A stretch of 64,000 bases of DNA from contig WFMF01000099.1 of NCBI GenBank assembly GCA_011033025.1, positions 422,190 through 486,189 on the forward strand. The letters run 5' to 3'. A model generated the notes under the pieces. The model ran no database searches and had not been told where the DNA came from. It saw nothing but the letters and a program-made list of their open reading frames with translations. The stretch comes from Beroe forskalii (Eukaryota > Ctenophora > Nuda > Beroida > Beroidae). Position 1 is the stretch's first letter; the number at the start of each line of letters is the position of its first letter. The position numbers and the translations under genes are program-made. Below are positions 286 to 64,000 of this stretch, piece after piece.

Positions 286-292
286 ATCCCCC

Positions 293-5287: not shown

Positions 5288-6807
<1,520 letters not shown>

Positions 6808-25423: not shown

Positions 25424-26209
25424 CTACATGAACATATCATCATGATCAAACATCCTGGTCCTCCCAGGCGGCATCAACGCATCGTTATCTGGTTCCCTGC
25501 CCCCAGGCCCAATGGGGTCATACCGTGCACCTGGCACTGGGCCCCATCCTGGCCCCATGCCAGGAGGTTGACTCCGCATAGGGTCCATAAACATGCCTCC
25601 ACCTCCTCCCCTGCCAAAGGGGTCCAGATCACCCCTGCCAACTGCAAATGGATCAGTGTTTCTGGGCAGACCAGGGTGCCGGTGTCTGTCATCCCTGAGG
25701 GAGTCTGGAGGAGGCATTACTGGATCAGAGTCATTTCTCCTCTCAAAGGAAGAGGCTGTGGAGGGACTGGGCTTGGGATCTAAGGGGGAAATAATGTCCT
25801 TATAGATCTTCTGATCAAAGTTAGGAACGTCTTTCGACTTGTACGTATTTGTGTCATCGTCAAAGTTTTCAATATGCTCTTCAATATTGAAATCAAGAGT
25901 TTTTAGCTCATTATTAGAGATTGCATTTATGACAATGACATTATTCATCAACAAAGCCTTAATTTCTGTAGTTAAATCCTTTTCTTTGTTCATGTACTTC
26001 AACGAAACTATGTCATCTTTGTCATCCCAATTCCTCGGAAGACTGACTTCCTCAGAACCAAATATCACAAAGCCTTTCTTTACAATTGCATCGTGAAACA
26101 AGGTGTAAATTGCGTGGAATTTACTCTTCGCTATCCTCTTGTACTCCATTATCAGAAAGTCTGATTCATCAGAGATCAAAATCAAACATAGGAAGAAACA
26201 TAGAACCTG
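25424..26209 (-). CDS. PSMF1: Proteasome inhibitor PI31 (PSMF1) homologue, main coding exon
   Basis: The N-terminal part (SKFHAIYTLFHDAIVKKGFV, then LPRNWDDKDDIVSLKY) matches the PI31 FP domain that dimerises and binds FBXO7-type partners. The C-terminal part is the Pro/Gly-rich proteasome-binding tail with the hallmark DPFAVGRGDLDPFG, GMFMDPMRSQPPG and GARYDPIGPGG segments, ending DHDDMFM. PI31 binds and modulates the 20S proteasome core and helps transport proteasomes. The first ATG in the exon is 26149 (241 residues, versus about 270 in vertebrates). The frame stays open upstream to an acceptor at 26210 (TTTTTTCAG), so a short 5' exon encoding the beginning of the FP domain probably exists but was not found. 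A corrupted second copy lies at about 63700-64000. Confidence 0.9.
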   Translation of the reverse strand, partial: QVLCFFLCLILISDESDFLIMEYKRIAKSKFHAIYTLFHDAIVKKGFVIFGSEEVSLPRNWDDKDDIVSLKYMNKEKDLTTEIKALLMNNVIVINAISNNELKTLDFNIEEHIENFDDDTNTYKSKDVPNFDQKIYKDIISPLDPKPSPSTASSFERRNDSDPVMPPPDSLRDDRHRHPGLPRNTDPFAVGRGDLDPFGRGGGGGMFMDPMRSQPPGMGPGWGPVPGARYDPIGPGGREPDNDALMPPGRTRMFDHDDMFM

Positions 26210-26971
26210 AAAAAAGGAAAGAGTGAGTAAGCAATATATTCAATATTCAATCATCTTTTTCAAGGAATACCAAATGGGACTTTAGGTTCCCATGACCATT
26301 ACAAAATTGTTCATCCTAGAATGTACCTAGTCAAGTTCATTTGCCAGAAAATTGATCAATATATCTCCAAGAAAGATAATTTCATATGGTTCAAATCAGT
26401 ACATATTTTTAAAGAGAAGTTTTTACTGCAGGTCATTATTTTTGGATAAATAATACAAATAATGATTTTGTAAAGATGGAAATCGATCAATATTGTACAC
26501 CACTTTGTTCAAATCATTTTAAGTTAATTATATCTATATACATTTATATACAAAAACAATAGAAATTAATTCCTTTTGTCATTGAAACTCTAAACAACTA
26601 AAACATGATTATCTGACTTTTTAAATAACATATACCAGATATGGATACTAAACATCATTACCTCAGGGAAAATAATATCATGCACATTAAAATAAAAACA
26701 TAAACTGTACATTAAAATAATACTGAGCATCATAAAAACTGTGGGAGAACCTGAGAATAATGAAAGCTAAATTTGGTGGTATTGTAATAGTATACCTTAA
26801 GAGTTATCAAATGAATCATTCATTGTGAATACAATACAACTAGCTCAGGGCACTGCTCTAAGCAGGGCCATGTGTACCTACCTAACTTGTGAATAACAAT
26901 AGCCATTCTGCCTTTGTTGTATTCTATTACGATTTTTAAGTAAGCTGTATAGTATTGTTTTATGAATATTC
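26210..26971. other. Interval between PI31 and the TIR gene
   Basis: AT-rich sequence. A short 5' exon of PI31 and the 3' UTR of the TIR gene should lie here. I could not place either precisely; no open frame of interest is present. Confidence 0.4.
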
Positions 26972-28189
26972 TCATCCATATGCATGCAGTACATCATAGG
27001 GATTTGGTGCAACCCTGAGATCTTCTGCAAAGCAACAATACTCTAATGCATAACCAGAATAAGTTACCCATTTGCCATCATTAGCACCTTTGGAATGTTC
27101 TCCATAACATCGCAATCTATTGGAGCTACAATGTTCTATCCTTTTCACAATTCCTTCATGGTACCTCATTCCACCAGTCCTAACACCTTCTTCACCCCTA
27201 TAAGATCCTTGTGGGAAGATTACACGAGTTCCAACAGCAATGTCTTGAGGATTAGGTACTTTATTCAGAGCTACCATTGTCAAAGGTGGGAACCTGCCAC
27301 TTTCATCTTCATCATCCCACCTTATCTCAAAAGTCATATCCTCCTTAATGAATCTTATGATTGTTGCAGGAAAATAAGAATGTTTAATCCAATGTGCTAT
27401 TACATAGTCACCAACTTTTGGAACTTTATCTCTGATACTTTCATCAAGGTTTGCTGTTTGCATGGCAATCACTTCTGAATATGTGGGAGGTGCTGATGCT
27501 TCACCACTATCCTGAATAGAAAGCTGGTTTAGTCTGGTTGATGCTACTTCAGTATCCACCATGCCAAGCATACTCTTAATTGCACCAACAAGAAATCCCA
27601 TTTTTTCCTTAAATTCTACATCTTGTGTAATGGGTACATTCATTAAAAATGGCACTCTTCCATCTTGTTTTATATATGAATCAATTGTTGGGCAGATCTC
27701 TCCTGGCCTGATTAGCACTGGCAGGACAGGCTTCTTCAGTGATTTAAAAGCAAACTGATATTCCATTTTACACTGGTCATCCATGCAGTATTCAGGAGAT
27801 AACAGAGCAACAAATAATTTGACTTTTTGCAAGTGAAGAGCTCTATCATCATAAAAATCACCAGTGGATTGTGGTCCCAGTGATACACTGGCAAACCATG
27901 GCTTGAAATGTCTTGACAGTTCAGCTGTGATTTGCATGGGGTCATGATATTGAGAGCTACAAGATGTTCCACCAGAGCAATTCTCTGGGCAATAACTTAC
28001 ATAGACATCATAATCCTGTGAGGGGTCCTGGAATATAACAGTAGGGATACTTGATTCCTGTTCAGAATGGGTTGAAGAGTCAGATGATGATCTAAAACCA
28101 TGGTGTTCTATAAGATGATCAATATGCTCAACACCAGAAGAAAACTTAAATCTGCAGCTGTTTACACCACAAGAAAACCTCCCCATCAT
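26972..28189 (-). CDS. TIR-domain protein with N-terminal zinc-finger-like motif and C-terminal Tudor-like pair
   Basis: An uninterrupted frame of 405 residues. Residues 5-31 (FSCGVNSCRFKFSSGVEHID plus HLIEHH) look like a C2H2-type zinc knuckle. Residues 59-210 are a TIR domain: DYDVYVSYCPEN, KVKLFVALLSPEYCMDDQC, Glu143 at the position of the conserved WCxxE/NADase glutamate, then KKPVLPVLI. PPTY (234-237) is a possible WW-binding motif. Residues 255-310 (VGDYVIAHWIKHSYFPATII ... EIRWDDEDESGRFPP) and 316-393 resemble SGF29/DUF4537-type Tudor-like modules. TIR domains assemble in innate signalling or cleave NAD+; Tudor-like folds read modified peptides. The order is unlike TLR, MyD88 or SARM1. 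Start: first ATG of ATGATG. A frame-broken copy lies at 62036-63250. Confidence 0.8.
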   Translation of the reverse strand: MMGRFSCGVNSCRFKFSSGVEHIDHLIEHHGFRSSSDSSTHSEQESSIPTVIFQDPSQDYDVYVSYCPENCSGGTSCSSQYHDPMQITAELSRHFKPWFASVSLGPQSTGDFYDDRALHLQKVKLFVALLSPEYCMDDQCKMEYQFAFKSLKKPVLPVLIRPGEICPTIDSYIKQDGRVPFLMNVPITQDVEFKEKMGFLVGAIKSMLGMVDTEVASTRLNQLSIQDSGEASAPPTYSEVIAMQTANLDESIRDKVPKVGDYVIAHWIKHSYFPATIIRFIKEDMTFEIRWDDEDESGRFPPLTMVALNKVPNPQDIAVGTRVIFPQGSYRGEEGVRTGGMRYHEGIVKRIEHCSSNRLRCYGEHSKGANDGKWVTYSGYALEYCCFAEDLRVAPNPYDVLHAYG

Positions 28190-29040
28190 TCAAGCTTCAG
28201 ATTAAAGAATCATGACTCATCCTTTCTTTAAATTATCCTGTGCAATAAGGTATTAATTATTGGTGTGGATTTCCTGGGATACTGAGATCATCTACAAAAT
28301 TCATTGCTGAAACCAGGGCTCATTCGATGTCAAAAATTTTTGAAAAGCAGTCAATTTTCAAGCAAGTTTTTACTTTCATATTGAAAAATATACAAATAAC
28401 CAAGACAACGCGATTGTTTTTCATGGGGTTATCCCCCTCAATGCTATAAACAATCAAGTTCAACACCAGAGCTGTACATAAATTGAAATGGCTTCAATTG
28501 GCCAATGAATGATGTCATTATGAAGATAAAACATTGAATAACTTTTTATGCAGGAAATTCATCAAATTCAATTTTTAGGAAAAATATTTTTAATACAAAC
28601 ATCTTAACAAACATAGAAATTTCACATTTCAAGCTGAATCAAATAGAGCAGCACAGACTGACTTAATTTCAGTTTCAGATTTGCGTTTTTATTGAAAAGC
28701 TCTAATTTAGCTTGTCCATGTCAGAATGTCATGTCAGGCGTTGCTAGATGATGATCTCAGCTTGCGCTCATCGCCCCGGCCTCGTCTGACCCATGATAAT
28801 TCGACCTCAGGTATGTTTAATAGTCTAGATATAACGGTTGCGGATATGTGCGCTTCTAAAGTGGCTCACTTGGCCACTTGCTAATCTGTAAACACTTGCT
28901 AAACACATATACCATACCCATTGCCTGTTGGCATCGCATACACATTACACACACCTATGCGGGCTTTTGCCTTTTCCTACTAGAGTAGTTAGTTTTACAT
29001 AAAACAGTAATCTGTAATATAATGGGTCTGACGGTTTCCT
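28190..29040. other. Intergenic sequence upstream of the TIR gene
   Basis: AT-rich sequence, well conserved in the right arm (59340-62035 minus the 1.9 kb insertion), with no open frame. The promoter of the TIR gene should be here. A TATA-type element cannot be singled out. Confidence 0.4.
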
Positions 29041-29049
29041 CATGTCAAA

Positions 29050-29692
29050 AGACCGATTTTGTGCGCGCTTATTTTACCGAAGAAAAACGCGCGCGCTTTT
29101 CTTACTGAAGAAAACAGAAAAACGCGCGCGCTTTTCTAACCGGAATAAAACGCACGCGCTTTTCTTACCGGAGAAAAACGCGCGCGCTTATCTTACCGGA
29201 GAAAACGCGCGCGATTTTCTAACCGGAGAAAAACGCGCGCGCTTTTCTTACTGGAGAAAAACGTGCGCTTTTCTTATTGGAGAAAAACGCACACGTACGC
29301 GCTCTTCTTACTGGAGAAGAACGCACGCGCTTTTCTTACTGGAGAAAAACGCGCGCGCTTTTCTTACTGGAGAAAAACGCGCGCGCTTTTCTTACTGGAG
29401 AAAAACGCGCGCACTTCCCTTACTGGAGAAAAACGCGCGCACTTCCCTTACTGGAGAAAAACGCGCGCTCCCTTCTTACTGAAGAAAAACGCGCGTGATT
29501 TACTTACCGAGAAAAACGCGCCCGCTTTTCTTACCTTAATGAAATTTTCATTTTTCGTGACCCCCCTACTTACCGGAGAAAAACGTGCGCGCTTTTCTTA
29601 CCGGAGGAAAACATGCGCGATTTTCTTACCGGAGGAAAACATGCGCGCTTTTCTTACCGGAGAAAAACCCGCGTAAGGGCCATCCATAGAAA
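29050..29692. repeat. CpG-rich 28-bp minisatellite (left arm)
   Basis: About 22 copies of a unit close to CTTACTGGAGAAAAACGCGC followed by GCGCTTTT. Because 28 is not a multiple of three, all three frames run open through the array and give the same LTGEKRARFSYWRKTRALFL peptide in rotation; these are not genes. It lies between the 3' end of TCERG1 and the TIR gene. The right arm has the same array, shorter, at 58790. Confidence 0.92.
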
Positions 29693-30537
29693 ATCGGCAA
29701 TCCCGCAACCGAAAAGAATTCTAAGAAATCGACAAATGCGACGTCCGGGGGGGAGGGGCGGTTCTGGACTGCGGACGTCCCTCATGATGACCCCTTAAAA
29801 TTAAATAATACTTGTGTTTATGTCCATATACCACGAACATTAAAGACGCACAAACTGTCCAGATGCCGGGGTATACGTATTTGAATTTCAAAGTTAGCAG
29901 ATGTGGAGTCGAAGGAATTCTTAAATTTCATCATGATTATTCATCGACATCCCCTTTGCATTTTTGGCCACAGCAATTCAATAATTCATTTGTTGAGCAA
30001 ATGCAACTTCATGAAAGCTGCAAAAATGGCTGATTGAGTAAGAGCGCACTTTCAAGGTACCTGGTACATCCGTGCATTTTCTCTTTCAGCAATTTCAGTG
30101 GCGCAAAATACCATGCCTGAAGCTAAAACTAAAAGCATGTATTTCGCGCCACTGAAATACCAAACTATGTGGAAAGTACATTGTGGACTGGTTCTAGAAT
30201 TACAACCAATATGGCGTGTGATATACAAAAAGGCACCTGAGTTGATCTTGTCTCCAAAAATCACGGTTTTTTGAAATCTTGATCATCTCGAATCTTTCAA
30301 TCTGACATCAATATCATGAACAATTCAACATTAAAAGCAGGCCCGATTCAAACAGTTATCTTTGAGTTTGAACTTCAAGATAATCTCAAAAAGTGTAAAT
30401 TTAAAATTGTAGCTGTGCTCGGATATATAATTGGAGATAAGACGGAAAAGCAAATAAATTTGACCGGTTACAGATATAATTGATATTAATAATGCCTGTA
30501 CGCAGCGCAGAATAAAACCATGTCACACCTCACCCCC
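29693..30537. other. Interval downstream of TCERG1 (left copy)
   Basis: Holds the TCERG1 3' UTR and intergenic sequence. Near 30070-30160 GGTATTTCAGTGGCGCGAAA-type sequence occurs in both orientations (AATTTCAGTGGCGCAAAATAC and its inverse), forming a hairpin also present in the right arm at 58510-58565. The stretch 29700-29860 has no counterpart in the right arm. Confidence 0.5.
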
Positions 30538-33500
30538 TCATCTCTTGGAGGGTCGTGTAGCGGTGGGTGGTGGTGGGGGACCGTACTTCTCAATCTCAGA
30601 CAGGTAATCGTCCAGGATCTGGTCTCGTTCCTCCGGCAGATCATCCAAAACTAGACCTCGCTTATCATTCTGAGAGGAGGGGCTTAGTCTACGATCTGTG
30701 ATCAGAAACTGGAAATTTGTCCGAAAATTAATCCAATATTTTTCCTTCAAAGATAAAAATAACATTACTAACCGTGAGGAATTGTCGGATTTCTCTCATG
30801 TGAGAATCTCCGTTGGGCCCTCTCAGCACTTCTTTCGACTTGTGGGACACGCACTTTATCTCCTTCAGGAGCTGCTTGAATTCAGACTTAGCCAGAGTGA
30901 TCTTATCTTTGATGTGACCCTGGAACTCTGTTTCCCTTTCCTGGATTAGAAGTTGGTTATGCTCGACCGACTGTTTGCAATTGCCAACTCGTTTTTGACT
31001 GGTCAAAAGTGGACTAATTCTCGGAACAGATTAACATTGAATTCTGCAGTCAAATACCTTGTCATCATCAGAGAATTTGGCAAATCGAGGATCATGTTTG
31101 ATCTTTCGTCTGATTTCCTTCCAGGTTGAGGTCAAAGTCAACTGAAGGAAATAATTTATATCATTAGTTACATACCTGAGTGTTTTTTGTCAGAATTTAT
31201 TATGAATCTATCAGACGGCAAAAGCAACGCGGCTATGGATGAGAGAAATGGGGCTCTGGTTAGAGAAATGCATGAATGCTCTACTCACATGTTCGCACTC
31301 ATCCAGCAGCTTCCTGAAACTCCGCTTCCGCTTGTTAGACAGATTCTTGATATGCTCGTTGAAGTGTTTCTCCTTCTGCTCAGCATCTATCAGCACACAC
31401 AACTCCCACCTCGTATCATCCCGGAGTTGTTTCCGTGTTTTGCGCCAGGAGGCGTCAGCGTCACGCACCATGTCGTGGAGTAGGGCGAGGAAGTGCTGCT
31501 GTGCTTCCTCCCGCGCGTGCGCGCCTCGCTCCCTCTCCCACTCACGGTTCTGATCGACCTAGAAAAAGGGATCAGGGGTCAGGAGTGAGAATAGAGTAGG
31601 TTGAAGTAAGGATTGGGGGCAGTAAAAATTTATGATTAAGAAAGTGTCGTGCCATGAGCGTTGTGGAAGTAGACAGGCAAGGCGATCGACCGATCGTGGG
31701 GGTAACGCAATGGGGGTCGGACAACTTCAGAAACCGTTCCCTTACACTTTGCAGATATCCCTCACCTGTTTCCTAGCTACCTCTCCCTCCCTCTTCTTCA
31801 TCGCTGCTGCCTCTCTTTCCTTCCTCGCTATTGCTTTCTTCTCTGACTCAGAGAGTTCAGGTTCCCTCTCCTCCAAAGTCTTGGTGTACTCGTAGAAATA
31901 ACCCTCGCGAGTAGACGACGACCCTACTGCTATGTACCTATGATGAGTTGTGTGATTAGGGGAAGAATGGTGATGTGGATGCTGGCGAATTACCAAAAGG
32001 GGAGAATTTCCATCAAGATGTTATCGAATAGATTTGAATTATCAAACACCATCGTCTAGTTAAGGTTAGAAATAGAAATGACCTTTCATCGTGCGCAAAG
32101 TACTTCTTTTTCTTGCTCCAATTGCTTTCTGGGTTAATCCTCACATCGCCACTTCGCAGCATTTCCATGAAATCTTCCTTTACCTGGCAAGGTATGGAAG
32201 GTTCAATATATTGCTTTCGCAGTCGAGGGGGAGGTGGTTCCGAGCATCAGGGTTGGTTGATGTTCGAAGGGCTGAAAATTGCTGTCACACCGTACAGTGT
32301 ACGTGAAATTCGAGTACAAAATTCGCGCGCGCGGTTGCGCGCTATACGAAATGCTGAAGGGTGTTTTGCTTTTCACTCCTGAACGACCGCGCAGCGTACG
32401 CAAACAACTAAAAAGTTTGTGACCGCGCCACAAACTTCTCCCAAACTTACAGCTTTCGCGGCTTTGGTTTCCTTCGATTCTTTCCTGTCCCTACTTCTGT
32501 CCCCTGATTCCCTCCTGTCCCTCGACTCCCTCCTTTCCCCAGCTGATTCTCTTCTGTCCCTCTCAGAATTCTTCCTCGATCGTTCCTCCTTGCTTCTGTC
32601 CCGCTCACCACTCCTTTCTTTTGGAGCAGGGCTGCGTTCGCGCGGTGTTTTCTCTCGCGGAGTTCGCTCTCTCGCAGCTGGAACACTCCTTTCTCGCTCG
32701 GGTTCCTTAGCCCTCTCCTGGGGACTCTCTTTAGTCTCATCCGAGTCCTTCTTCTTCTCGGATTGCTCGGATTTCCACTCGTGGAACAGGTGCTCTCGTT
32801 CTCGCATCTTCTCGATTGCTTTGAACTTCGGATCTTTTCCGTATTTCTGAGCAAAGTCACTGAACGTAGCCCTGAAAAATGTAGCAAATGTTACAATTCC
32901 CAAAGGTAGATAATTTCAGTTCCGAGGCATAAGCATTTTACAACAGTTGCGAATAGAGAAAAGTACTAATTGACATTAGCTAAACAGAAAGATAACCTTG
33001 AAGAGAGGTTGGCTTTCTCTATCAGCTTCTTGAACGCATCCCTGTTATCTTTGATTTTGTTTCTCTTCTCTATCCTCTCATCCTCAGCTCTGCTCTTGAT
33101 AAAAGCCTCGTAAGCTTGCTTCCTCTCTCTGCCTGACAGCAGTAAGTACCGCGGATCAAACACTATCTTGTGCAGCTCCTTGTCCCAAGTGCTAAACGCT
33201 GAGACCTCCCTGTCCAGCAACATCTCACGGAATGCTGTCTGTCTTTCTTCTAGACTCATCTTCTCTTTCTGATACTTGGAGGCTTCCACCTTGTCTCCCT
33301 TATCAGGCTTAGGCTGGCTGTAGGGGGTGGTTCGGGTGATGGAAGGGAAGAAACAGGGCATCGCGGATGAAATTGAAGTTGTATCTCGTGTTATCGAGTA
33401 ACTTACTAAAATCAGCAGACGATGATAATCACATGATTTTCGCAACTCGCCAACTCCTGCTTGAGCATGTCAAGAAATAAGAAAAAGAGCAAAGCTCCCC

Positions 33501-36500
33501 ATTCGTTGAAGTAATAACTAACTCGGCCTCTTCTGTTTTGGTTGGTTTCGCGGCTGCAGCATTTGATGCCATGTTGATAATGATACCATCAGATTTCTTA
33601 TTACCAGACGCAGCTTCTTTATCAAGCCTGGGAGGAATGTGTTAAGGGGAGAACAGTTAACAAGAGAAAGATTAGGAAAGCAGTAGCAGAATTAGGAATG
33701 TGTATTTCTGAAATTAATAGAAAGTTGAGAATTCATTTCAAACTGCGAAATGTTTGCCATTCGGCATGGCATGGATACAAAATATTAGAAAAGGGGGGGT
33801 TCTGTTTGGTAGATGTTGGAAAATAGGTAAGGGTTAAGATTCGTGTCTATCGTTGGCCTGGGATAAATAATCATTCTTAGATAGATTACTTTGGGTTACG
33901 GTTATTGTTAGAAAAATTATTTAGTTCTCGATTAGAATTTCGCTTTGAACGAACAGTACCAGCAACATTGGCTTCTTTCCTGAGATGTTATTCCTGAAAT
34001 CTTCCAGTGATGTTATAAATTCCCAGTTCAAACTTTGATTTTAGTATCTGAATAGTTAGATACTATCTATAAACCTCTGTATGGCTGAAACAAGGCCCTC
34101 CAATATCATCTTAAAAACAAAAGGATTTTGTTATTGTTGCTACCCATAAAAATGAACAAAAAACCTAATTACTTTACCTTGAATGTTAGGTCAAATAAAA
34201 GGAGGCTAGCCGGTGTTACGCCAAACTGAATGGTACACAAAGTAAGAAGATGAAAATAAATAGGTATAAAATCTATTTTCATTGGAAAAAGGCACTAACG
34301 ATTGAATCAAATTTACATGAGGCATGAAAATAGAATATAAGTATTTTTAAGGTCTGAACAATCCGAGAAATCAAATTCAAATCGTTGGTGCCTTGCCCCT
34401 TAAGCATTGGCTTGAGTCGTCAGTATGAGAACAAAGATAGACGTTTCATTTTGATGTCGATTTATAATACGGAGAAACAATTGGGGAAATTTCTTTGTTC
34501 TTGTTTAATGATATAAATTTTAAATTGGCATTCAATAGAATCATCAGAACGTGCAGCATTGCGCGTTTCCTTTTCGAAATGAGACCTATTGGGTAATCTA
34601 AGAAGTAGGGATTTCTCAATATTTATGGATGGGCTGTAAATCTACAAATGGTCTTTTATAATGGGTATGATTTGTTGATTGAAACCTTTCAAGAAAATTT
34701 ATCGTAAGAATCTCTCGGAAATCATACCCATCATTTCGAGCATAGGAAAGATTTTTCCAAAAGGCATAACTGGGAGTAGGGCAATCCTGTAGGGTAATTA
34801 CGGAAGGGCGTGGGCGGCTAGGAGAGAGTACATACTTGCGTGGATGTTGACAATCCTTATACTTTCAGATCTTTGTTGTTCTTGTGTTTGAGCAAAGCAT
34901 CAGAGCATTGCAGATAAGTCCTCTCCAACCAGACCCATGTTTGGTGATTAGCAATGATTGAAAACACGAATAGAAAATTCGAAGAAAACGAATATGGGAT
35001 GCAGTAAGTTGTAAAGTCACTTGAAAAATAGGCATTTTCATTGCTAAAAGTGCGTTGAACTTCAAAAGAACAAAACTTCTTCTATCTGATTCCCGCCCTG
35101 GCCAGGGCGGTAACCCCCCGCGGTAATAGAAAAGACTGGCCAGGGTATATATTAGAGATTTGAGTGTCACAGGGTGATATAATATATACATAATAAGATA
35201 GATCATGATAATTAGGAGCAAAGTTATAAAGCCGAGATCTCAAGAACGGGAAATGGTAGAGCCATGATCGAGGTCAGGTTTTGTTGACCTAAGATGGGAA
35301 AATGTTATAGGCTATAAGAGAAGTTCTGGTGACGTCATTTTCACGTCACTATGACGTCATCAACTTAGCGAAATTTTATTGCGAATATAGGTCATCTTCG
35401 TGCGCATTTTTCTCCAAGAAGGAAAGGAGATAGCTCAAAAATTTTGAAAAATCGTTAGTTGGAAATTTAAAGAACTTTCAGAAAATCATATGGATCATTG
35501 GGCTATCTCGATTTTTCATCGAGATATACGCGATTTTCTAAGGTACGGTGAAAAATCAATTTCAAAATTTTAGGAGAAAAACTTAAACGAGTGATATGTC
35601 AAGAACTGCAGCTTATCTTGAGATGAGACCGGTCAAAGTATGTTGTACTAAGGCGGAATTGTGTGATAGGCTATATGGAAAGTTGGTTTGAGCTTATTTG
35701 GGTGCTGTGATGACGTCATCAAAATCGCGTAAAAGCACTAAAATAGCGTATTTTGTGATAGAACGCTATTTTGCGCTACTTTTACATCTCCAACTCATAG
35801 AGTGTTCATCGGATTATGTGGGTCCGAATAACGGGGGTCCGAATAACGGGGGTCCGAGTAACGGGGGTCCGAATAACGGGGGTCCGAGTAACAGGGGTCC
35901 GAATAACGGGGGTCCGAGTAACGGGGGTCCGAATAACGGGGGTCCGAATAACGGGGGTCCGAATAACGGGGAAATATACGATGGACTAGTGAAGCACGTG
36001 AGTTCACGCGGACGTTTTGTAGAAATTAGGGGATTTGAAGAAATTGATATTTACGCAGGATTTTCGACTGATTATGTTGAAATGAGTTTAAATACGACTA
36101 ATGCATGAAATTAGATCTGGTTGCCATATTTTAGCACGTGAGTACACACGGACGTTTTGTAGAAATTAGGGATTTGAAGAAACTGATATTTACACGGGAT
36201 TTTCGACTTGGTTAGGTTGACATGAGTTCAAATACGACTAATGCACGTGAAATTAGATCTGGTTGCTATATTTAAGCACGTGAGTACACACGGACGTTTT
36301 GTAGAAATTAAGACATATATCAATACTAGTAATTTCAAGTTAGAATAACTTAGTTTTGGACTTCCTCAGGGTGATTTATGTGGGTTAGACTTGCGTGTGG
36401 GCTAGTAACGAGGGTTCGGACTACGTGTAACGTGAGGGCAAGTTACGTGGGTCTAAACTGCCTTTGGGCAAGTAACATGGGTTCAAACTACATACATCTG

Positions 36501-42443: not shown

Positions 42444-42935
42444 GGTACTGTCTTCCTACAATCAGAGGGTCGGGTTAACATGTAGTGGTTCCCAACAAAT
42501 TACTATTTGTGTTGATTTAATACTTATCATTATTTCCAAGAAAATCAATCTCAGTCTGACGATTAAGAAAATGTCTGACAAATCAAGAACAGTTGCGATA
42601 ATATAAAATTCAAAACTTCAACAAATCTCTTTGACATAAAAAGCATTAATGCAATAAATACACCAAATAACATAAAATATAAAAAGGTTCTGAAATGGCA
42701 CTGATGCTGCCTAATGAAGAAGCCCCGATAGGGTGCTTAAGTTATGCTGGCCATGACAGACAATGGAATGGTAACCTAATCTATATTTTATCTCCCCGTT
42801 GTTTAAAATGCTTCAAAGAAATTAAAGCTTGAACCTATTATTTCTAGCAGTCTACACCACACGACTGGAGAGACCTATTACCATGTATGACATGTTGAAC
42901 AAATCAGTGGCTAAGAGAAACGGAAGGTATAAAAT

Positions 42936-52600: not shown

Positions 52601-55600
52601 GCGCGCGTTTTAATTCAATTTTGCGCGGTGTACATTATATCCACTCCTTTTGTCTATGACATTATCGCTTTTTGATGACACGACCATTTCAGATAATGCA
52701 CCCCCTGCTGAAGAACCCCCAGCAAAGAAAAAACCTAAGTATGTGAATTCTAATCTTCATGAACTATAATCGCTTTGAGCCACCGAAAATAAAAGAAGAT
52801 ATTGAATGAAAAGTGTGTCTTTTTTCTCCGAATTTACTCATCAAAACACGAAAAAGCTTCTATAGTTCATTGATTCTGTTCTGATAAAACTTCTCTTTTG
52901 CTGAAAATATGATTCTGACTTTTTTATTAACCATGTCCCTCACAGCCAAACAGGTAGGGTAACATATTTCAGGTCGCCAAAACGTCCCTTGAAGCGAGCT
53001 GGACTAACATTAAAACCCAAAACTTGTTATTCATTATCCAAAACTAACCCTGTCAGGAAGCAATATGAACATGCTCCAAGTCTTCTTGATTTCCTCATTC
53101 CATCGACGAGGTTTTTACTAACCTACTAACAATAACTAACACACTAACAATAAATAACTTACAAACAATAACTAAAAAGTTGAAAACGTCAAAGCAAGAT
53201 TATGTTTATTTCCTCAATTCAGCTGTAATTTGTTTTTACTTACCTAGAACCCAGGGAAGATATGAGTTACAGCTTTGAGAAGAATTGAAGGCCCATGATG
53301 GTCTTGTCATAATGAGCGATGGGAACGTCGCCCCCCCTCCCCCCCCCCCTTTCAATTTATTCTATACAAACCAAGAATGATATATTCAATTTGAAATCCA
53401 CAAATAGATAAATCTGAATGACAGAGTCGCTTCAAATTTGTAGTTTCGAATAAATTACATACTTTTGGCCGGTTATAGTTTGTTATTGGCTTATTTCACT
53501 TGGCCCTCCGTTCTACAATTTTGTAACCTAAATCTCAGCCTGAATCATCAGAAGGGATACCCTCAAGTCTCCAGGTTAGTATCAGATAGAAGAAGTTTTG
53601 TTCTTTTGTAGTTCAACGCACTTTTAGCAATGATAATGCCTATTTTTCAAGTGTCCCTACAACTTACTGCATCCCATATTCGTTTTCTTCGAAGTTTTTA
53701 TTCGTGTTTTCAATCATTGCTAATCACCAAACATGGGTCTGGTTGGAGAGAACTTATCTACAGTGCTCTGGTGCTTTGCTCAAACTCAAGAACATCAAAG
53801 ATCTGAAAAGTATAAGGATTGTCAACTTTCACGCAAGTATGTACTCTGTCTACTAGCCTTCCACGCCCTTTCATTGCCCTACTCCCAGACATAATGCCTT
53901 TTGGAAAAATCCTTCCTTTGCTCGAAATAATGGGTATGATTTCCGAGGGATTCTAACGATAAATTTTCTTGAAAGGTTTCAATCAACAAATCATACCCAT
54001 TATAAAAGACAATGACCATTTGTAGATTTACAACCTATCCATAAATATTGAGAATTGAGAAATCCCTACTTCTATGATTACCCAATAGGTCTCATTTCGA
54101 AAAGGAAACGCGCATTGCTGCACGTTCTGATGATTCTATTGAATGCCAATTCAAAATTTGTATCATTTAACATGAACAAAGAAATTTCCCCAATTGTTTC
54201 TCCGTATTATAAGTCGACATCAAAATGAAACGTCTAACTTTGTTCTCATGTTGACGACTCAATCCAATGCTTAAGGGGCAAGGCACCAACGATTTGAATT
54301 TGATTTCTCGGATTTTTCAGACCTTAAAAATACTTATATTTTATTTTTATGCCTCATGTAAATTTGATTCAATCGTTAGTGCCTTTTTCCAATGAAAATA
54401 GATTTTATACCTATTTATTTTCATCTTCTTACTTTGTGTACCATTCAGTTTGGCGTAACACCGGCTAGCCTCCTTTTATTTGACCTAACATTCAAGGTAA
54501 AGTAATAAGGTTTTTTGTTCATTTTTATGGGTAGCAACAATAACAAAATCCTTTTGTTTTTAAGATGATATTGGAGAGCCTTGTTTCAGCCATACAGAGG
54601 TTTATGGATAGTGTCTAACTATTCAGATACTAAAATCTCAGTTTGAGCTGGGAATTTATAACATCTCTGGAAGATTTCAGGAATAACATCTCAGGAAAGA
54701 AGCCAATGTTACTGGTAGTGTTCGTTCAAAGCGAAATTCTAATCGAGAACTAAATAATTTGTCTAACAATAACAGTAACCCCAAGTTACTATCGAAGAAT
54801 GATTATTTATCGCAGGCCAGCGATAGACACGAATCTTAACCCTAACGTATTTCACAACATCTACCAAACAGACACCCCCCCCCCCCCCTTTTTTTTAATA
54901 TTTTCTATCCATGCTATGCCGAATGGCAAACATTTCGCAGTTTGAAATGAATTCTCATCTTTCTATTAATTTCAGAAATACACATTCCTAATTCTGCTAC
55001 TGCTTTCCTAATCTTTCTCTTGTTAACTGTTCTCCCCTTAACACATTCCTCCCAGGCTTGATAAAGAAGCTGCGTCTGGTAATAAGAAATCTGATGGTAT
55101 CATCATCAACATGGCATCTAATGCAGCTGCCGCGAAACCAACCAAAACAGAAGAGGCCGAGTTAGTTATTATTTCAACGAATGGGGAGCTTTGCTCTTTT
55201 TCTTATTTCTTGACATGCTCAAGCAGGAGTTGGCGAGTTGCGAAAATCATGTCTGCTGATTTTAGTGAGTTACTCGATAACACGAGATACAAGTTCAATT
55301 TCATCCGCGATGCCCTGTTTCTTCCCTTCCATCACCCGAACCACCCCCTACAGCCAGCCTAAGCCTGATAAGGGAGACAAGGTGGAAGCCTCCAAGTATC
55401 AGAAAGAGAAGATGAGTCTAGAAGAAAGACAGACAGCATTCCGTGAGATGTTGCTGGACAGGGAGGTCTCAGCGTTTAGCACTTGGGACAAGGAACTGCA
55501 CAAGATAGTGTTTGATCCGCGGTACTTACTGCTGTCAGGCAGAGAGAGGAAGCAAGCTTACGAGGCTTTTATCAAGAGCAGAGCTGAGGATGAGAGAATA

Positions 55601-58129
55601 GAGAAGAGAAACAAAATCAAGGATAACAGGGATGCGTTCAAAAAGCTGATAGAGAAAGCCAACCTCTCTTCAAGGTTACCTTTCTGTTTAGCTACTGTCA
55701 ATTGCTACTTTTTACTGTTCGCAACTGTTGTAAAATGCCTAAACCTCGGAACTGAAATTGTAACATTTGCTACATTTTTCAGGGCTACGTTCAGTGACTT
55801 TGCTCAGAAATACGGAAAAGATCCGAAGTTCAAAGCGATCGAGAAGATGCGAGAACGAGAGCACTTGTTCCACGAGTGGAAATCCGAGCAATCCGAGAAG
55901 AAGAAAGACTCGGATGAGACTAAAGAGAGTCCCCAGGAGAGGGCTAAGGAGCCAGAACGAGAGAGGAGTGTTCCAGCTGCGAGAGAGCGAACTCCGCGAG
56001 AGAAAACACCGCGCGAACGCACCCCTCCTCCAAAAGAAAGGAGTGGTGAGCGGGACAGAAGCAAGGAGGAACGATCGAGGAAGAATTCTGAGAGGGACAG
56101 AAGAGAATCAGCTGGGGAAAGGAGGGAGTCGAGGGACAGGAGGGAATCAGGGGACAGAAGTAGGGACAGGAAAGAGTCGAAAGAAACCAAAGCCGCGAAA
56201 GCTGTAAGTTTGGGAGAAGTTTGTGGCGCGGTCACAAACTTTTTAGTTGTTTGCGTACTGCGCGCGGTCATTCAAGAGTGAAAAGCAAAACACTTTTCAG
56301 CATTTCGTATCGCGCGCAACCGCGCGCGCGAATTTTATTCTTCAAAATTTCATGATTGAGTCGAATTTTACGTACTTTGTACAGTGTGGCAGCAATTTTC
56401 GGCCCTTCGAACATCAGCCAACCATGATGCTTGGAACCACCTCCCCCTCGACTGCAAAAGCAATATATTAAACCTTTCATACCTTGGCAGGTCAAAGAAG
56501 ATTTCATGGAAATGCTGCGAAGTGGCGATGTAAGGATTAACCCAGAAAGCAACTGGAGCAAGAAGAAGAAGTACTTTGCGCACGATGAGAGGTCATTTCT
56601 ATTTCTAACCCTAACACCATCAACTAGACGATGGTGTTTGATAATTTAAATCAATTCGATAACATCTTGATGACAATTCTCCCCTTTTGATAATTCGCCA
56701 GCATCCACATCACCATTCTTCCCCTAATCAAACATCTCATATCCCAGGTACATAGCAGTAGGATCGTCGTCTACTCGTGAGGGGTATTTCTACGAGTACA
56801 CCAAGACTTTGGAGGAGAGGGAACCTGAACTCTCTGAGTCAGAGAAGAAAGCAATAGCGAGGAAGGAAAGAGAGGCAGCAGCGATGAAGAAGAGGGAGGG
56901 AGAGGTAGCTAGGAAACAGGTGAGGGATATTTCCTAAGTGTAAAGGAACGGTTTCTGAAGTTGTCTGACCCCCATAGCGTTACCCCCCGATCGCTCGATC
57001 GCCTTGCCTGTCTAGTGCAACAACACTCATGGCACGACACTTAATCATAAATTTGTACCTCCTATATTCTCACTCCTGAACCCCTGATCCCTTTCTCTAG
57101 GTTGACCAGAACCGTGAGTGGGAGAGGGAGCGAGGCGCGCACGCGCGGGAGGAAGCGCAGCAGCACTTCCTCGCCCTCCTCCACGACATGGTCCGTGACG
57201 CTGACGCCTCCTGGCGCAAAACACGCAAACAGCTCCGGGATGATACGAGGTGGGAGTTGTGTGTGCTGATTGATGCGGAACAGAAGGAGAAACACTTCAA
57301 CGAGCATATCAAGAATCTGTCTAACAAGCGGAAGCGGAGTTTCAGGAAACTGCTGGATGAGTGCGAACATGTGGGTAGAGTATTCCTGCATTTTTCTAAC
57401 CAGAGCCCCCTTTCTCTCATCCATAGCCGCGTTGCGTTGCTTTTGCCGTCTGATAGATTCATAATAAATTCTGACAAAAAACACTCAGGTATGTAACTAA
57501 TGATATAAATCATTTCCTTCAGTTGACTTTGACCTCAACCTGGAAGGAAATCAGACGAAAGATCAAACATGATCCTCGATTCGCTAAATTCTCTGATGAT
57601 GACAAGGTATTTGACAGCAGAATTCAATGTTAATCTGTTACGAGAATTAATCCACTTTTAACCAGTCAAAAACGAGTTGGCAATTGAAAACAGTCGGTCG
57701 AGCATAACCAACTTCTAATCCAGGAAAGGGAAACCGAGTTCCAGGGTCACATCAAAGATAAGATCACTCTGGCTAAGTCTGAATTCAAGCAGCTCCTGAA
57801 GGAGATAAAGTGCGTGTCCCACAAGTCGAAAGAAGTGCTGAGGGGACCCAACGGAGATTCTCACATGAGAGAAATCCGACAATTCCTCACGGTTCGTAAT
57901 GTTATTTTTTATCTTTGGAGGAAAAATATTGGATTAATTTTCGGACAAATTCCCAGTTTTTGATCACACAGATCGTAGACTGAGCCCCTCCTCTCAGAAT
58001 GATAAGCGAGGTCTGGTTCTGGATGATCTGCCGGAGGAACGAGACCAGATCCTGGACGATTACCTGTCTGAGATTGAGAAGTACGGTCCCCCACCACCAC
58101 CCACCGCTACACGACCCTCCAAGAGATGA
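46683..58129 (+). CDS. TCERG1: Transcription elongation regulator 1 (TCERG1/CA150), right copy, complete
   Basis: Sixteen plus-strand exons: 46683-47654, 47806-47989, 48183-48407, 48587-48820, 51156-51302, 51627-52007, 52693-52738, 55056-55160, 55354-55674, 55783-56203, 56491-56591, 56748-56919, 57101-57370, 57523-57606, 57724-57891, 57998-58129. Every exon matches its left-copy partner in length except exon 1 (972 versus 981 bp) and exon 6 (381 versus 384 bp), and all phases are kept, giving 1320 residues. Differences are conservative, such as loss of PLQ after GMDR, one Glu fewer in the poly-Glu run before WW3, Ser to Asn near FNRGG, and Val to Ala at the exon 5/6 junction. The same three WW and six FF domains are present. 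No stop or frameshift was found, so the copy looks functional. It is transcribed divergently from the left copy, with RWDD1 and PUS1 between. Confidence 0.96.
49020..51138 (+). repeat. 34-bp minisatellite in TCERG1 intron 4 (right copy, about 60 units)
   Basis: The same unit as at 39490-40076 in reverse orientation (CCATAAGTTACACTGTGTAC followed by CAAGCCCCCAGATG). Length variants and short deletions are more frequent here. It fills nearly the whole intron and ends about 18 bases before the exon 5 acceptor at 51156. Expansion relative to the left copy is about 3.6 fold. Confidence 0.95.
53330..53355. repeat. Long C homopolymer region in TCERG1 intron 7
   Basis: C-rich runs (CCCCCCCTCCCCCCCCCCTT) correspond to a shorter G run in the left arm at about 36890. 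A similar C/T run occurs at 54875-54896. Such tracts are error-prone in sequencing and are noted only as markers. Confidence 0.8.
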
Positions 58130-58789
58130 GGGGGTGAGGTGTGACATGGTTTTATTCTGCGCTGCGTACAGGCATTATTAATATCAATTATATCGGTAAC
58201 CGGTCAAATTTATTTGCTTTTCCGTCTTATCTCTAATTATATATCCGAGCACAGCTACAATTTTAAATTACCACTTTTTGAGATTATCTTGAAGTTCAAA
58301 CTCAAAGATAACTGTTTGAATCGGGCCTGCTTTTAATGTTGAATTGTTCATGATATTGATGTCAGATTGAAAGATTCGAGATGATCAAGATTTCAAAAAA
58401 CCGTGATTTTTGGACACAAGATCAACTCAGGGGCCTTTTTGTATATCACACGCCATATTGGTTTTAATTCTAGAACCAGTCCACAATGTACTTTCCACAT
58501 AGTTTGGTATTTCAGTGGCGCGAAATACATGCTTTTAGCTTCAGGCATGGTATTTTGCGCCACTGTTATTGCTGATAGTGAAAATGCGTGGATGTACCAG
58601 GTACCTTAAAAGTGCGCTCTTACTCAATCAGCCATTTTTGCAGCTTTCATGAAGTTGCATTTGCTCAACAAATGAATTATTGAATTGCTGTGGCCAAAAA
58701 TGCAAAGGGGATGTCGATGAATAATCATGATGAAATTTAAGAATTCCTTCGGCTCCACATCTGCTAACTTTGATATTCAAATACGTATT

Positions 58790-59195
58790 AAGAAAAGGCG
58801 CGCGCGTTTTTCCCCGGTAAGAAAAGCACGGGTTTTTCTCCGGTAAGAAAAGCACGGGTTTTTCTCCGGTAAGAAAAGCGCGCACGTTTTTCTCCGGTAA
58901 GAAAAGCGCGCGTGTTTTTCTCCAATAAGAAAAGCGCGCGCGTTTTTCTCCAGTAAGAAAAGCGCGCGCGTTTTTCTCCAATAAGAATAGCGCGCGCGAG
59001 GGGGCCAGGCAACGTTTTTCTTCGGTATGAAAAGCGCGCACGTTTTTCTTCGGTAAAAGCGCGCGCGTTTTTCTCCAAAAAGAAAAACGCCCGCGCGCGT
59101 TTTTCTCCAATAAGAAAAGCGCGCGCGTTTTTCTCCAATAAGAATAGCGCGCGCGTTTTTCTCCGGTTAGAAAAGCGGGCGCGTTTTTCTCCTGG
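58790..59195. repeat. CpG-rich 28-bp minisatellite (right arm)
   Basis: About 14 copies of the same unit as 29050-29692, in inverse orientation (GTTTTTCTCCGGTAAGAAAA then GCGCGC). There are fewer copies than in the left arm and the inner flank differs. Open frames through it are repeat-coded. Confidence 0.92.
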
Positions 59196-59686
59196 AAGAT
59201 TACTGTTTTATGTAAAACTAACTACTCTAGTAAGAAAAGGCAAAAGCCCGCATAGGTTGTCTGACGTCGTCAGACCCATTATTTAAAAATTAAAAAATTT
59301 GCGAGTCGTGGCGCGCGCGAGGGGGTCAGGCAACGCCTGACAACGCATAGGTGTGTGTATGCGATGCCAACAGGCAATGGGTATGGTATACGTGTTTAGC
59401 AAGTGTTTACGGATTAGCAAGTGAGTCACTTTAAAAGCGCACATATCCACCACTGTTATATTTAGACTATTAAATTCATACCTGAGGTCGAATCATCATA
59501 GGTCAGATGAGGCCGGGGCGATCGCTATGAGCGCAAGCTGAGATCATTTGGCAAGCAACGCCTGACATGACATTCTGACATGGACAAGCTAAATCAGAGC
59601 TTTTCAATAAAAACGCAAATCTGAAACTGAAATTAAGTCAGTCTGTGCTGTTTTATTTGATTCAGCTTGAAATGTGAAATTTTATG
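59196..59686. other. Intergenic sequence between the minisatellite and the right-arm insertion
   Basis: Matches the left arm (28612-29050) in reverse. It includes a second copy of the GCGCGCGAGGGGG / CAGGCAACGCCTGAC motif near 59310. No gene. Confidence 0.5.
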
Positions 59687-59690
59687 TATA

Positions 59691-59742
59691 GATATTCCAC
59701 TGTAAACGAGGGCCGTTAGGCCCGAGTTTACAGTGGAATATC
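59691..59742. repeat. 24-bp inverted repeat hairpin at the insertion end
   Basis: GATATTCCACTGTAAAC plus GAGGGCC is followed after a 4-base loop (GTTA) by its complement, 22 of 24 positions paired. Stable hairpins right at a boundary are seen in several transposon classes and also as termini of rolling-circle elements. Confidence 0.9.
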
Positions 59743-60419
59743 GTACATATCTCCCTGCATAATTAATAGAAAATTATCTGACGGTTTGAACCCTGTAAAT
59801 TATGTGAACCAATTCCAAGTGGTTTTTGAGAAAATCGCATCTAAAGTTTGATTGGCTCTTACACTGCAACGTGACTCATAAATACGCAGTAACATTGGCT
59901 TTCGCATAACACAGGGGTATCAGGTGTCACTCTATATGACCAAGTCACGTTGCCACATGGTTGGTACAAGTATCAACTACTAGCCTTTACACCCGCTCAT
60001 ATTTAATTTATCCGGCGAAATGACGTCATTAACATGGTAACATGCTGCCAAACTGTCGAATCTAGCCGCCTATTATTCACAGCAGGTGTATATATTAGCA
60101 CCAGTTGGTAGAGGAAAGCTCAGTGATACTTTTGCTTGACTTGCAATTTGTTTCAAACTCCTTACTTTCGTAGTACTGTTATATACCGGTTAAATTGGAT
60201 GCAGCCATAAAAACAATTTAGTTTCATCATATAAACATAGATTATTAAACTTATACCTACAGCACTCTATAGTTTTAATAAAGAAAAAATTAAGTAAGAA
60301 AGTATAAAATTACATTGACATAAACATTCGATATTAATCAAAAGCCAAAAGCAGAAATGGATGCTGAAGCTTTCAGGCAAATCAGCTGATTATGAAAAGG
60401 AAACATCTCCTCTCAGCCC

Positions 60420-61128
60420 ATCAGGGATAAGATTGAACGAAATATCGGAAATCGGGCGATTCGCTCACGAGAGGACTTGCCCGAGATCCTCTTACCGACA
60501 TCAGTACACTCTTCAAAAGTGCAAAAGACAGTTTTGTTCTCATTGTACTGATCACATCCCGGTATTCCTCATTAGTTTTCTGTGCTACAAGATTTGCAAT
60601 CCTCTTGTGAAATGCCTGTGCCTGAGGAGCCATGCCTCTAACGCATTGTACACGAGAGTGGTGTGAAGCTGCACTTCTCCACCTGTATGACTCCGCTGCT
60701 CATACTCCCTCTTCTTGATGTTCTCGTGTTGGGTGTATACTGACTTGATGTCCCGATCCTTGTAGGAGTCTGCATTGGGATGGAAGATCCTGACATCAAA
60801 CATCGTCTTCTTCTGGAAAGGTCCCCTATAACCCTCGAGCAGAGAGATGTCGAGACGGGCCTCTCCTCCACATTCCCTGGGATTGACTGAGAAGAGTCGA
60901 TAGGGATCAGCTCTTAGGCTCGGTCTTAACGTCGTGACAGACTTCTAAGAAACGCATTTGTGTCTCGAACTTTGTTGTGTCTGAAGATTAGGTAGCCACC
61001 ATTTTTACAAATAAGAGTGTGATCTACCGAATTCTTCTTCCCACACACACAAACTGCTGGAATGTTAGGAATCTGCCAACCGTACCTTAACCTGAGTGCA
61101 TCCCTGAACTCTTCTTTGTTCAGTACCC
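60420..61128 (-). pseudogene. 3' fragment of a LINE (non-LTR retrotransposon) ORF2, frameshifted
   Basis: On the minus strand, pieces in different frames read in order: LNKEEFRDALRLRYGW, VCVCGKKNSVDHTLICKNGG and FRHNKVRDTNAFL (the C-x-C, H and C residues of a zinc-knuckle-like site), LDISLLEGYRGP, MFDVRIFHPNADSYKDRDIK and SVYTQHENIKKREYEQR, then FTPL, and MAPQAQAFHKRIANLVAQKT ending RGSRAS. This order is the C-terminal domain of LINE polyproteins common in marine invertebrates. There is a stop near 60950 and at least two frameshifts. The endonuclease and reverse-transcriptase parts are absent, as in a 5'-truncated insertion. Confidence 0.8.
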
Positions 61129-61483
61129 ACCCGAGGGAACCGGGTAATAAAGTAATAACGCAGGATCATATCACTTTTTTACACTTCATATCACTTTTTT
61201 ACACTTTCCGAAATATTTCTAACATTTGGTGTGCACTCTAAATATGTATTTTACCACATTAAAATTATTGTATAATTAGATTAATGTATCTAATAAGCAG
61301 TTTGTAAACTTTGGTTTGCGATATAATTATAGTTCTCTTATTACACTGCATGACAGTTAAGTGAGTAGAACTCCATACTAACTGGCTCGATGCCAAGGGC
61401 AGTATTTTCAGATATTTCCCTCATTCAGGAAAAAATATAGGAAATGCGCCCTCCTTGCTATGACTCTCAAGATAATCTAATTA

Positions 61484-61576
61484 CACGTGATATGAAGCAG
61501 AGGCACGTGGTATAATTACAAAGCTCTGATTCATGGTCACCATGACACGTGACCTGTCACGTTCAAGGGTCACGTG
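61484..61576. promoter_or_regulatory. Cluster of four CACGTG (E-box) palindromes
   Basis: CACGTG occurs at 61484-61489, 61504-61509, 61546-61551 and 61571-61576, with two more CACG half-sites between. Four copies of a 6-bp palindrome in 93 bp is far above chance in AT-rich DNA. bHLH-zip factors such as MYC/MAX, USF or MITF/TFEB bind this core. The cluster lies at the inner edge of the right-arm insertion, about 460 bp before the TIR gene copy. Function is inferred only. Confidence 0.4.
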
Positions 61577-62035
61577 TATGGTGTCGCAATCAGCTTCCTA
61601 TGCAGGGAGATATGTTAAGATGTTTGTATTAAAAATATTTTTCCTAAAAATTGAATTTGATGAATTTCCTGCATAAAAAGTTATTCAATGTTTTATCTTC
61701 ATAATGACATCATTCATTGGCCAATTGAAGCCATTTCAATTTATGTACAGCTCTGGTGTTGAACTTGATTGTTTATAGCGTTGACTAAGGTTGGTAACCC
61801 CATTAAAAACACTCGAGTTGCCTTGATTATTTGTATATTTTTCAATATGAAAGTAAAAACTTGCTTGAAAATTGACTGCTTTACAAAAATTTATGACATT
61901 GAATGAGCCCTGGTTTCAGCAATTAATTTTGTAGATGATCTCAGAATCCCAGGAAATCCACACCAATAATTGATACCTTATTGCACAGGATAATTTAAAG
62001 AAAGGATGAGTCATGATTCTTTAATCTAAGCTTGA

Positions 62036-63250
62036 ATGATGGGAGGTTTTCTTGTGGTGTAAACAGCTGCAGATTTAAGTTTTCTTCTGGTGTTGAGCAT
62101 ATTGATCATCTTATAGAACACCATGGTTTTAGATCATCATCTGACTCTTCAACCCATTCCCAGTGCAGTGTAGCTGTGTCTTCCGAACAGGAAGCAAGTA
62201 TCCCTACTGTTATATTCCAGGACCCCTCACAGGATTATGATGTCTATGTAAGTTATTGCCCAGAGAATTGCTCTGGTGGAACATCTTGTAGCTCTCAATA
62301 TGACCCATGCAAATCACAGCTGAACTGTCAAGACATTTCAAGCCATGGTTTTGCCAGTGTATCATCAGACCACAATCCACTGGTGATTTTTATGATGACA
62401 GAGCTTTTTCATTCTTGCAAAAGTCAAATTATTTGTTGCTCTGTTATCTCCTGAATACTGCATGGATGACCAGTGTAAATGGAATATCAGTTTGCTTTTT
62501 TAAAACACTGGAAAAGCCTGTTGCCAGTGCTAATCAGCCAGGAGATCTGCCCCCCAATTGTTCAAAATAAAAAAAAAAATGGGAAAGTCCCCTTTTAATA
62601 AGGCCCCTTTCAAAGATTAAAATTTTAAAGGGAAAAAAGGGTTTTTGGGGGTTGAATTGCTTGGAAAAAATTGGGTACTGAAAATAGCATCCCAAACCCG
62701 ACTAAACCAGCTTTTCTATTCCCGGAAAAAGTGGTAAACACCCTTTTTACATATTCAAAAAATTGCCCCAAACAAACAAAGTAAAATATCAGAATAAAAT
62801 TCCAAAAAAATTGAATTTTGTTTGCCTTTGTTAAAACTTTTTTTCCCCGCAAAATTAAAGATTTTATTGGGGGGATATGACTTTTGAGGGGAAAGGGGGG
62901 ATGATGAGGGGTGGCAGGGTTCCCCCAAAGACAATGGGAGCTCGAAAAAGTACCTAAACCCCAAATTTCTGTTGGAACTCTTTTTCTTTCCCCAAAGGTC
63001 TTATTTTTAGGGGTAAGAAGAATGAGGGCTTTGGTTATTCCTAAAAAATTTAAAAAGGTAAAAACATTTGGGGCCCCTTAGATTTCCGATGTTTATTGGA
63101 AAATTCCCCAAAATGAATGATTCAAATTTTATAACTTTTTGGTTTTGCATTATTTGTTTGCTTTCAAAATTTTCCCGGGGGTTTCCCAAATTTTTATGAT
63201 GCATTTTTATTTGGAAAATTTTTTAATTTCGTTTTTAAAATTTTAAAAAA
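62036..63250 (+). pseudogene. Second copy of the TIR-domain gene, frame-broken and corrupted
   Basis: From the ATGATG at 62036 the sequence follows the left TIR gene closely to about 62560 (CGVNSCRFKFSSGVEHIDHL, YDVYVSYCPENCSGG). It lacks one G right after the start, so the ATG is out of frame. It carries an in-frame addition of about nine codons (QCSVAVSSE) and loses the frame near 62297 by a small deletion. After 62560 only islands remain recognisable, for example CGACTAAACCAGCTTTTCTA near 62699, matching codons around residue 218 of the left gene. Given the noise further right, some or all of the breaks may be base-calling errors; the nine-codon insertion is more likely a real difference. 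Confidence 0.8.
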
Positions 63251-64000
63251 TTTTTGTAATTATTTTCCCCGAGGCAATGGTGTTTGATTAAAAAATGTTT
63301 TGATAATTTGTTTTTAAAAATCCAAAATTTTTGTTTTTAAATTTGGGTTTTAAGTTTTAGCCTTTAAAACATTTGTTTTTTTTTAATGTTAAAAGATAAT
63401 TTTTTTCCCCGGAAATTTTTTTAACCAAAACTGGTTTTGTTTTCAAATGATAAATTATTTTGGATTGTTTGGATTTTTTTGCAAAAAATTAATTTCTTTG
63501 GAATAAAGAAAGTTTTAAATTTAGTTTGAAAAATTTTTAAATTATCTTTCCCCTTAAAAAAATTAAAAAGAAGTCAAAAAAATTTTCCCCGGAAGGTTTA
63601 AAAAATTAGGATGGCAAATTTTTTTTAAAAGATCTTTCCCAAAAAACCCAAATTCTTGGAAAAAGAATAAATTTAAAAAATTTTTGGAATTACCCTTTTT
63701 TTGGTTTCCTTTTTTTTTTTCCAGTTCTATTTTTTTTTCTTTACCCCATGTTTGATTTTTTATCTGATAATCAGACTTTTTTAATTATGGAGTACAAAAA
63801 GGATGGGAAAAAATAAAATTTCCCCCAAAATTTAAACCTTTTTTACTTTAAAGAAACTTTTTTAAAAAGAAAGTCAGTCTCCCAAATTTGGGGTGAAAAA
63901 TGACATAATTTCTTTGGAAAGAACAAAAAAAGTTTACTCAATTAGGCTTTGTTGTTTAATAAATTTTCATAAAATGCCCTCTCTTGGGGCTAAAAAATCT
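62560..64000. other. Low-quality sequence with inflated homopolymers
   Basis: Runs of A, T, G and C of four to eleven bases replace the mixed sequence of the left arm. The underlying order of the TIR gene, the intergenic interval and PI31 can still be followed. The error density rises from a few small indels at 62290 to every few bases after 62600, as at the poor end of a read. Open frames here are meaningless. Confidence 0.85.
63690..64000 (+). pseudogene. Corrupted start of a second PI31 (PSMF1) copy, cut by window end
   Basis: CCAGTTCTAT (63721) corresponds to the acceptor and exon start at 26209. Then TTTGATTTTTTATCTGATAA and TTATGGAGTACAAAA, AAGAAAGTCAGTCTCCC, ATGACATAATTTCTTTGG and AGGCTTTGTTG match the left PI31 exon in order. 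Frame cannot be judged because of sequence noise. It shows that the inverted duplication reaches into the PI31 gene. Confidence 0.8.

Follow-up and report, generated by a model that had tools for sequence, protein, structure and literature searches.

Two intact TCERG1 genes, transcribed away from each other, are found in the final 64 kb of scaffold C1123 of the Beroe forskalii assembly, in two arms that are inverted copies of one another. This palindrome is most probably a product of the assembly, with a chance of roughly four in five: two haplotypes of one locus would have been joined head to head at the end of a scaffold. The 64,000 bases that were analysed are called the window here. They belong to a scaffold of 486,189 bases, in an assembly of 216 Mb and 1134 pieces.

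If so, the individual would have one TCERG1 locus with two alleles. The left arm would be haplotype A, on the main path of the scaffold. The right arm would be a piece of haplotype B from the same locus, kept separate by the assembler owing to differences of 2-5% and to insertions, and then attached in reverse at the scaffold end. The sequence-only reading had offered such a head to head join as its alternative, and given the homology at the scaffold end and the recurring doubled genes, it is the explanation that fits best.

The two arms and the scaffold end

Inverted homology, as found by blastn, connects positions 25916-42739 of the window with 63984-46404. The left arm (A, 25916..42739, minus strand) contains TCERG1 copy A, which is transcribed leftwards, together with intergenic sequence and the beginning of a PI31-like gene. 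The Pfam family PI31_Prot_N is found in 25427-26239. The right arm (B) occupies 46404..63984 on the plus strand.

TCERG1 copy A lies at 30538..42443 on the minus strand and has 16 coding exons and 1324 amino acids. Copy B, at 46683..58129 on the plus strand, also has 16 coding exons, and encodes 1320 amino acids. Both gene models have AG/GT junctions and an open frame. These exon counts and lengths are the same as those given earlier from the letters alone, and the arms and open frames confirm that the assembly has an inverted duplication with two intact, divergently transcribed genes. It should be noted that the models were rebuilt with the earlier exon count already known. The model script took only splice sites common to both copies and arrived at 15 exons; one donor was misplaced owing to a tandem duplication in copy A. 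A 46-bp exon and one donor were placed by hand afterwards, and later a donor in copy A.

The Pfam domain scan was done on copy B, from which copy A differs at 14 residues and by two in-frame indels. Copy B has three WW and six FF stretches. For a 140-residue part of it, the best matches among solved structures (PDB) are named ‘Transcription elongation regulator 1’. From these domains and structure names, the genes are identified as TCERG1.

The window ends where the scaffold ends, at 64000, and the homology comes within 16 bp of that point, the last blastn piece reaching 63984. This outermost piece (25916-26221 with 63984-63709) is weak, at 69% identity over 319 columns and an E value of 5e-16. 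The next piece starts at 27187, and blastn gives none in 26222-27186. The right outer breakpoint of the palindrome is not visible, because the scaffold stops before any such point. Homology that runs to the end of a scaffold favours joined haplotypes.

It also speaks against the main rival, a real inverted segmental duplication of some 17 kb, which we consider unlikely. Under that explanation the TCERG1 block would have been copied in reverse beside two other genes (RWD and pseudouridine synthase), and both copies would be functional and under purifying selection. An outer breakpoint of such a duplication is not seen.

Sequence quality is different in the final 1.46 kb of the right arm (62541..64000, plus strand). 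This tail is smeared and rich in runs, with same-base steps at 1.85 times expectation. Compared to its partner in the left arm it is 85% identical, with 205 mismatches. In 94% of these the base in the right arm is the same as one of its own neighbours; for the base in the left arm the figure is 25%. The same measure gives 45-49% and 49-50% in two stretches of gene body. When the tail is compared to an unrelated control segment on the left, identity drops to 73% and the neighbour asymmetry is 81% versus 32%. Since the asymmetry also appears against an unrelated control, it marks error in the right-arm sequence and says nothing about homology. The homology itself follows from the higher identity (85% versus 73%) and from the collinear blastn pieces that lead into the PI31-like gene. 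Judged by its letters, the tail is base-calling error laid over homology. Poor sequence in this place, and perhaps also in the bridge between the arms, counts against a real duplication.

Divergence between the arms

With gaps excluded, the arms differ at 3.2% of exon positions (128/3963). Two sets of introns differ at 4.4% (32/722) and 5.1% (231/4554), upstream sequence at 4.0% (11/278) and downstream sequence at 2.3-2.9% (15/641 and 21/712). The differences are scattered across exons, introns and flanks, and identical runs reach 201 bp at most. For a stretch of 28-bp satellite (28953-29673 versus 58789-59260), blastn aligns the arms at only about 75-83%.

Each arm also has sequence of its own. 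An insertion of 1.56 kb (35.09-36.65 kb) is private to the left arm, and another of 1.9 kb (59.69-61.61 kb) is private to the right. Tandem repeats are unequal in length between the arms; a 34-bp repeat takes up 0.58 kb on the left versus about 2.1 kb on the right. The copy-specific insertions and repeat expansions described in the sequence-only reading are thus really there.

This pattern would look like long-separated haplotypes or an old duplication, and not like arms homogenised by gene conversion. A palindrome that persists by gene conversion was the preferred explanation before this analysis, and it is rejected here: the alignable parts are 2-5% apart, each arm has insertions of its own, and neither near-identical arms nor long conversion tracts were found between them. 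The palindrome arms of the human and chimpanzee Y chromosomes are kept nearly identical. Unlike these, the TCERG1 arms differ by 2-5% and have private insertions. What the two cases have in common, as far as the Y palindromes are covered in the part of PMC7953838 used here, is a pair of inverted arms around a spacer, with intact genes in both.

The fold-back of a single read, of the kind caused by an unsplit adapter, is rejected on the same divergence and insertions. It had been argued from the letters that such an artefact would give identical arms, and this argument is sound.

Between the coding sequences of the two copies dN is 0.0045 and dS 0.150, for a dN/dS of 0.03 (0.030). Third codon positions differ at 8.4% (111/1321). 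Two intact copies with such a low dN/dS are in line with a real duplication, and a synonymous divergence of 0.15 would be very high for alleles. The latter counts against joined haplotypes.

There are two further observations on these differences. Third-position divergence (8.4%) and dS (0.15) are higher than the divergence of the introns, which is around 5%. In addition, transitions make up a larger share of the differences in exons (82:46) than outside coding sequence (145:144).

Within the assembly, a 5.2-kb piece of TCERG1 finds two long matches and no third, with all three candidates scored (3/3). Two long copies and no third, 2-5% apart and each with private insertions, favour two haplotypes. 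Assembly searches also found no third copy of an arm, and in them neither the spacer nor the flank piece 23300-26900 had an allelic copy. This flank piece was found in its own place only, in a search of limited sensitivity, which also missed the degraded partner at 63709-63984. For joined haplotypes to hold, the other haplotype must have been collapsed or dropped at 23300-26900.

The bridge between the arms

The spacer runs from 42740 to 46403 and measures 3,664 bp. It holds two genes, both on the minus strand and both recognised through Pfam. The first, at 42939..43607, is a single open frame of 223 codons with an RWD domain (E 1e-23), and we take it to be RWDD1-like. The second, at 44234..45557, is a tRNA pseudouridine synthase gene, presumably PUS1-like, spread over two overlapping open frames. 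PseudoU_synth_1 matches it with an E value of 5e-13 for 44234-45247; the open frame at 45171-45557 has no Pfam family.

The pseudouridine synthase gene, the RWD gene and TCERG1 copy A (42443-45557) lie on the same strand with short gaps. They could form an operon-like cluster.

A piece of the spacer that includes both genes, 42745-45900, is found only in its own place by the assembly search. There is no N gap between the arms, which are connected by contiguous sequence. Both facts count against joined haplotypes, and the second arm would be easier to accept as a true duplicate for the same reasons: the sequence over the junction is contiguous and free of N, and the spacer genes are found only once in the assembly.

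At 45906..46390, on the plus strand and at the right junction, there is a truncated fragment, 485 bp long, of an element that the assembly search shows to be multi-copy and that has inverted terminal repeats. Among the 40 places scored, out of 1235 candidates, 39 are elsewhere, and several of these form plus/minus pairs a few kb apart. Seven copies of the terminal-repeat element were compared, and all continue past the part that is present in the bridge. The right arm begins 13 bp beyond it. The fragment has no partner in the spacer, and blastn against the rest of the window came up empty. An inversion driven by the terminal-repeat element is rejected on the lack of such a partner.

About 200 bp before this fragment, there is a run-rich and possibly low-quality patch of 230 bp at 45471..45700. 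The sequence between the two is found once. Same-base steps in the patch are at 1.54 times expectation, with z up to 9.5; five stretches elsewhere in the window give 1.00-1.16 times. It is a short, A+T-rich patch, and a high z is not peculiar to it. The G/C runs that occur naturally in exon 1 (47451-47600) score 9.2 in that scan, and a repeat at 151-300 scores 18.5. Run-rich stretches are also present in L009, in the left flank of the scaffold, at 801-1050, 2001-2200 and 8351-8550; by eye, the last of these has a natural repeat in common with window positions 1-300. That the bridge patch is not unique, and that natural runs reach a similar z, counts against joined haplotypes.

Even so, poor sequence beside a repeat fragment is where one would expect a contig to stop, and a false join could arise there. 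Upstream of the pseudouridine-synthase gene, the haplotype A contig would pass into poor sequence, and the haplotype B contig would stop in the repeat. The false join would then lie within 45.47-46.40 kb. The degraded tail, the bridge patch and the truncated repeat fragment together favour joined haplotypes.

The fragment could be explained in another way. Upstream of TCERG1, the haplotypes might truly differ by an inversion or another rearrangement whose breakpoint carries a transposon fragment, and both would have been threaded into one path by the assembler. The point at which the two arms part, 13 bp from the multi-copy fragment, agrees with this, but the window has no matching second breakpoint, and a contig that ends in a repeat is a simpler account of the same fact. 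We regard a true rearrangement as very improbable.

A possible second fold-back is found at the other end of the window. The 100-N gap at 736..835 has an inverted pair of copies on its two sides (295-676 and 1212-836, 92% identical), and the assembly search finds this pair in these two places only. It is possible that this is a fold-back at a known contig join, or that it is a natural inverted repeat. The first of these would support joined haplotypes, and the second would weaken that support.

The window has other repeats as well. An element of about 2 kb at 11128-13191 matches over 20 further places of the assembly at 93-99% identity. These matches come from a search with 3000-15000, in which 39 of 3500 candidates were scored; transposons filled its list, the query's own place was absent from it, and it was left out of the case on the palindrome. 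An open frame at 12165-13172, on the minus strand, overlaps the element and has no Pfam match; to us it looks reverse-transcriptase-like. A 20-bp tandem repeat with around 55 copies is found at 22111-23240.

Doubled genes and published precedents

The assembly was also surveyed for other doubled genes, using three housekeeping families with 34 groups. Hits were grouped by eye. Neighbouring hits on a scaffold were counted as one locus, and groups were called doubled if loci had the same profile stretches with near-equal scores; most doubled pairs were judged without alignment. In total, 5 of the 34 groups are doubled. MCM has 13 loci in 9 groups, of which 4 are doubled. Chaperonin has 13 loci in 12 groups, 1 of them doubled, where two adjacent full-length genes on C691, and partial hits on C447 and C184, were taken as different genes. 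The proteasome has 13 loci and no doubled groups (0/13).

The doubled groups come in several layouts. Two are inverted on one scaffold (C580 and C558), one is direct on one scaffold (C297), and two are split over different scaffolds (C165/C209 and C182/C462). The C182/C462 pair is about 3% different by blastn (65 mismatches in the three longest pieces, 2117 columns) and 4.8% different by MAFFT (105/2197, with 608 gap columns). Pieces of C165/C209 have 781 columns at 95.9% and 294 at 90.1%. In the C580 pair, blastn pieces are 97.5-98% alike, the arms measure 3-5 kb, and one of them has a transposon. The inverted chaperonin pair on C558 (L049 175300-178200 and L050 214100-217000) is 7.8% different (213/2721), ranging from 83% to 99% alike by stretch of 250 columns.

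The TCERG1 arms, at 2-5%, thus diverge about as much as C182/C462 (3-4.8%), whereas the C580 pair is around 98% alike and the C558 pair 7.8% different. Doubling in 5 of 34 groups, a divergence close to that of a pair on separate scaffolds, and the inverted pair at the N gap all favour joined haplotypes, and the first two also tell against a real duplication. Conversely, the inverted pairs on C580 and C558 could be real duplications, given the short arms (3-5 kb) of the one and the 7.8% divergence of the other. If they are, they may weaken the case for joined haplotypes, as may the lack of any doubled proteasome gene, and duplications such as that of TCERG1 could then be real in this genome too.

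Assemblies with similar faults have been described, which also favours joined haplotypes. The portion of PMC9516828 drawn on here documents false duplications from divergent haplotypes, with 7-24% of them on one scaffold in three older assemblies. It reports them to be highest in the Sanger-based ones among these, and lists gaps between the copies as a mark. As in the false heterotype duplications of that text, both alleles of a divergent locus would here be present as paralogues, which there sometimes share a scaffold. Unlike those described in it, the TCERG1 copies are inverted and have no N gap between them; where an assembly gap would be, there is the 230-bp patch rich in runs, along with the multi-copy fragment. 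The duplicate does end at a scaffold end, in degraded sequence, and its divergence is like that of another doubled locus (C182/C462).

Another precedent is the 2013 assembly of Adineta vaga, where, going by an excerpt of PMC5916493, 23 of 25 homologous blocks on the same scaffold were palindromes. In the same excerpt, gaps in the scaffolds suggested a scaffolding error for some of the breaks in collinearity. That artificial palindromes can come from erroneous scaffolding is also stated in the section of PMC7953838 consulted. These palindromes, as they appear in the two excerpts, are likewise inverted homologous blocks on one scaffold. They are however multi-gene blocks in another kind of animal, and the TCERG1 arms, found at a scaffold end, comprise a single gene and the beginning of another.

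Palindromes can also be real. Those of the chromosomes of Botryllus schlosseri were judged to be so after read depth and structural-error calling, according to the part of PMC12448946 available to us. The likeness to that case, on the same partial text, is palindromic synteny in an animal assembly, which for TCERG1 is known from the assembly sequence alone.

What the palindrome means depends on which explanation holds. If the duplication is true, this animal would have two functional, divergently transcribed TCERG1 genes, of an age sufficient for a synonymous divergence of 15%, and inverted gene pairs would be frequent in its genome. This would be unusual for a gene that is normally single copy. 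Should the second copy be the other allele, a TCERG1 duplication or palindrome annotated at this place would be wrong, and the remaining doubled genes of the assembly call for the same check.
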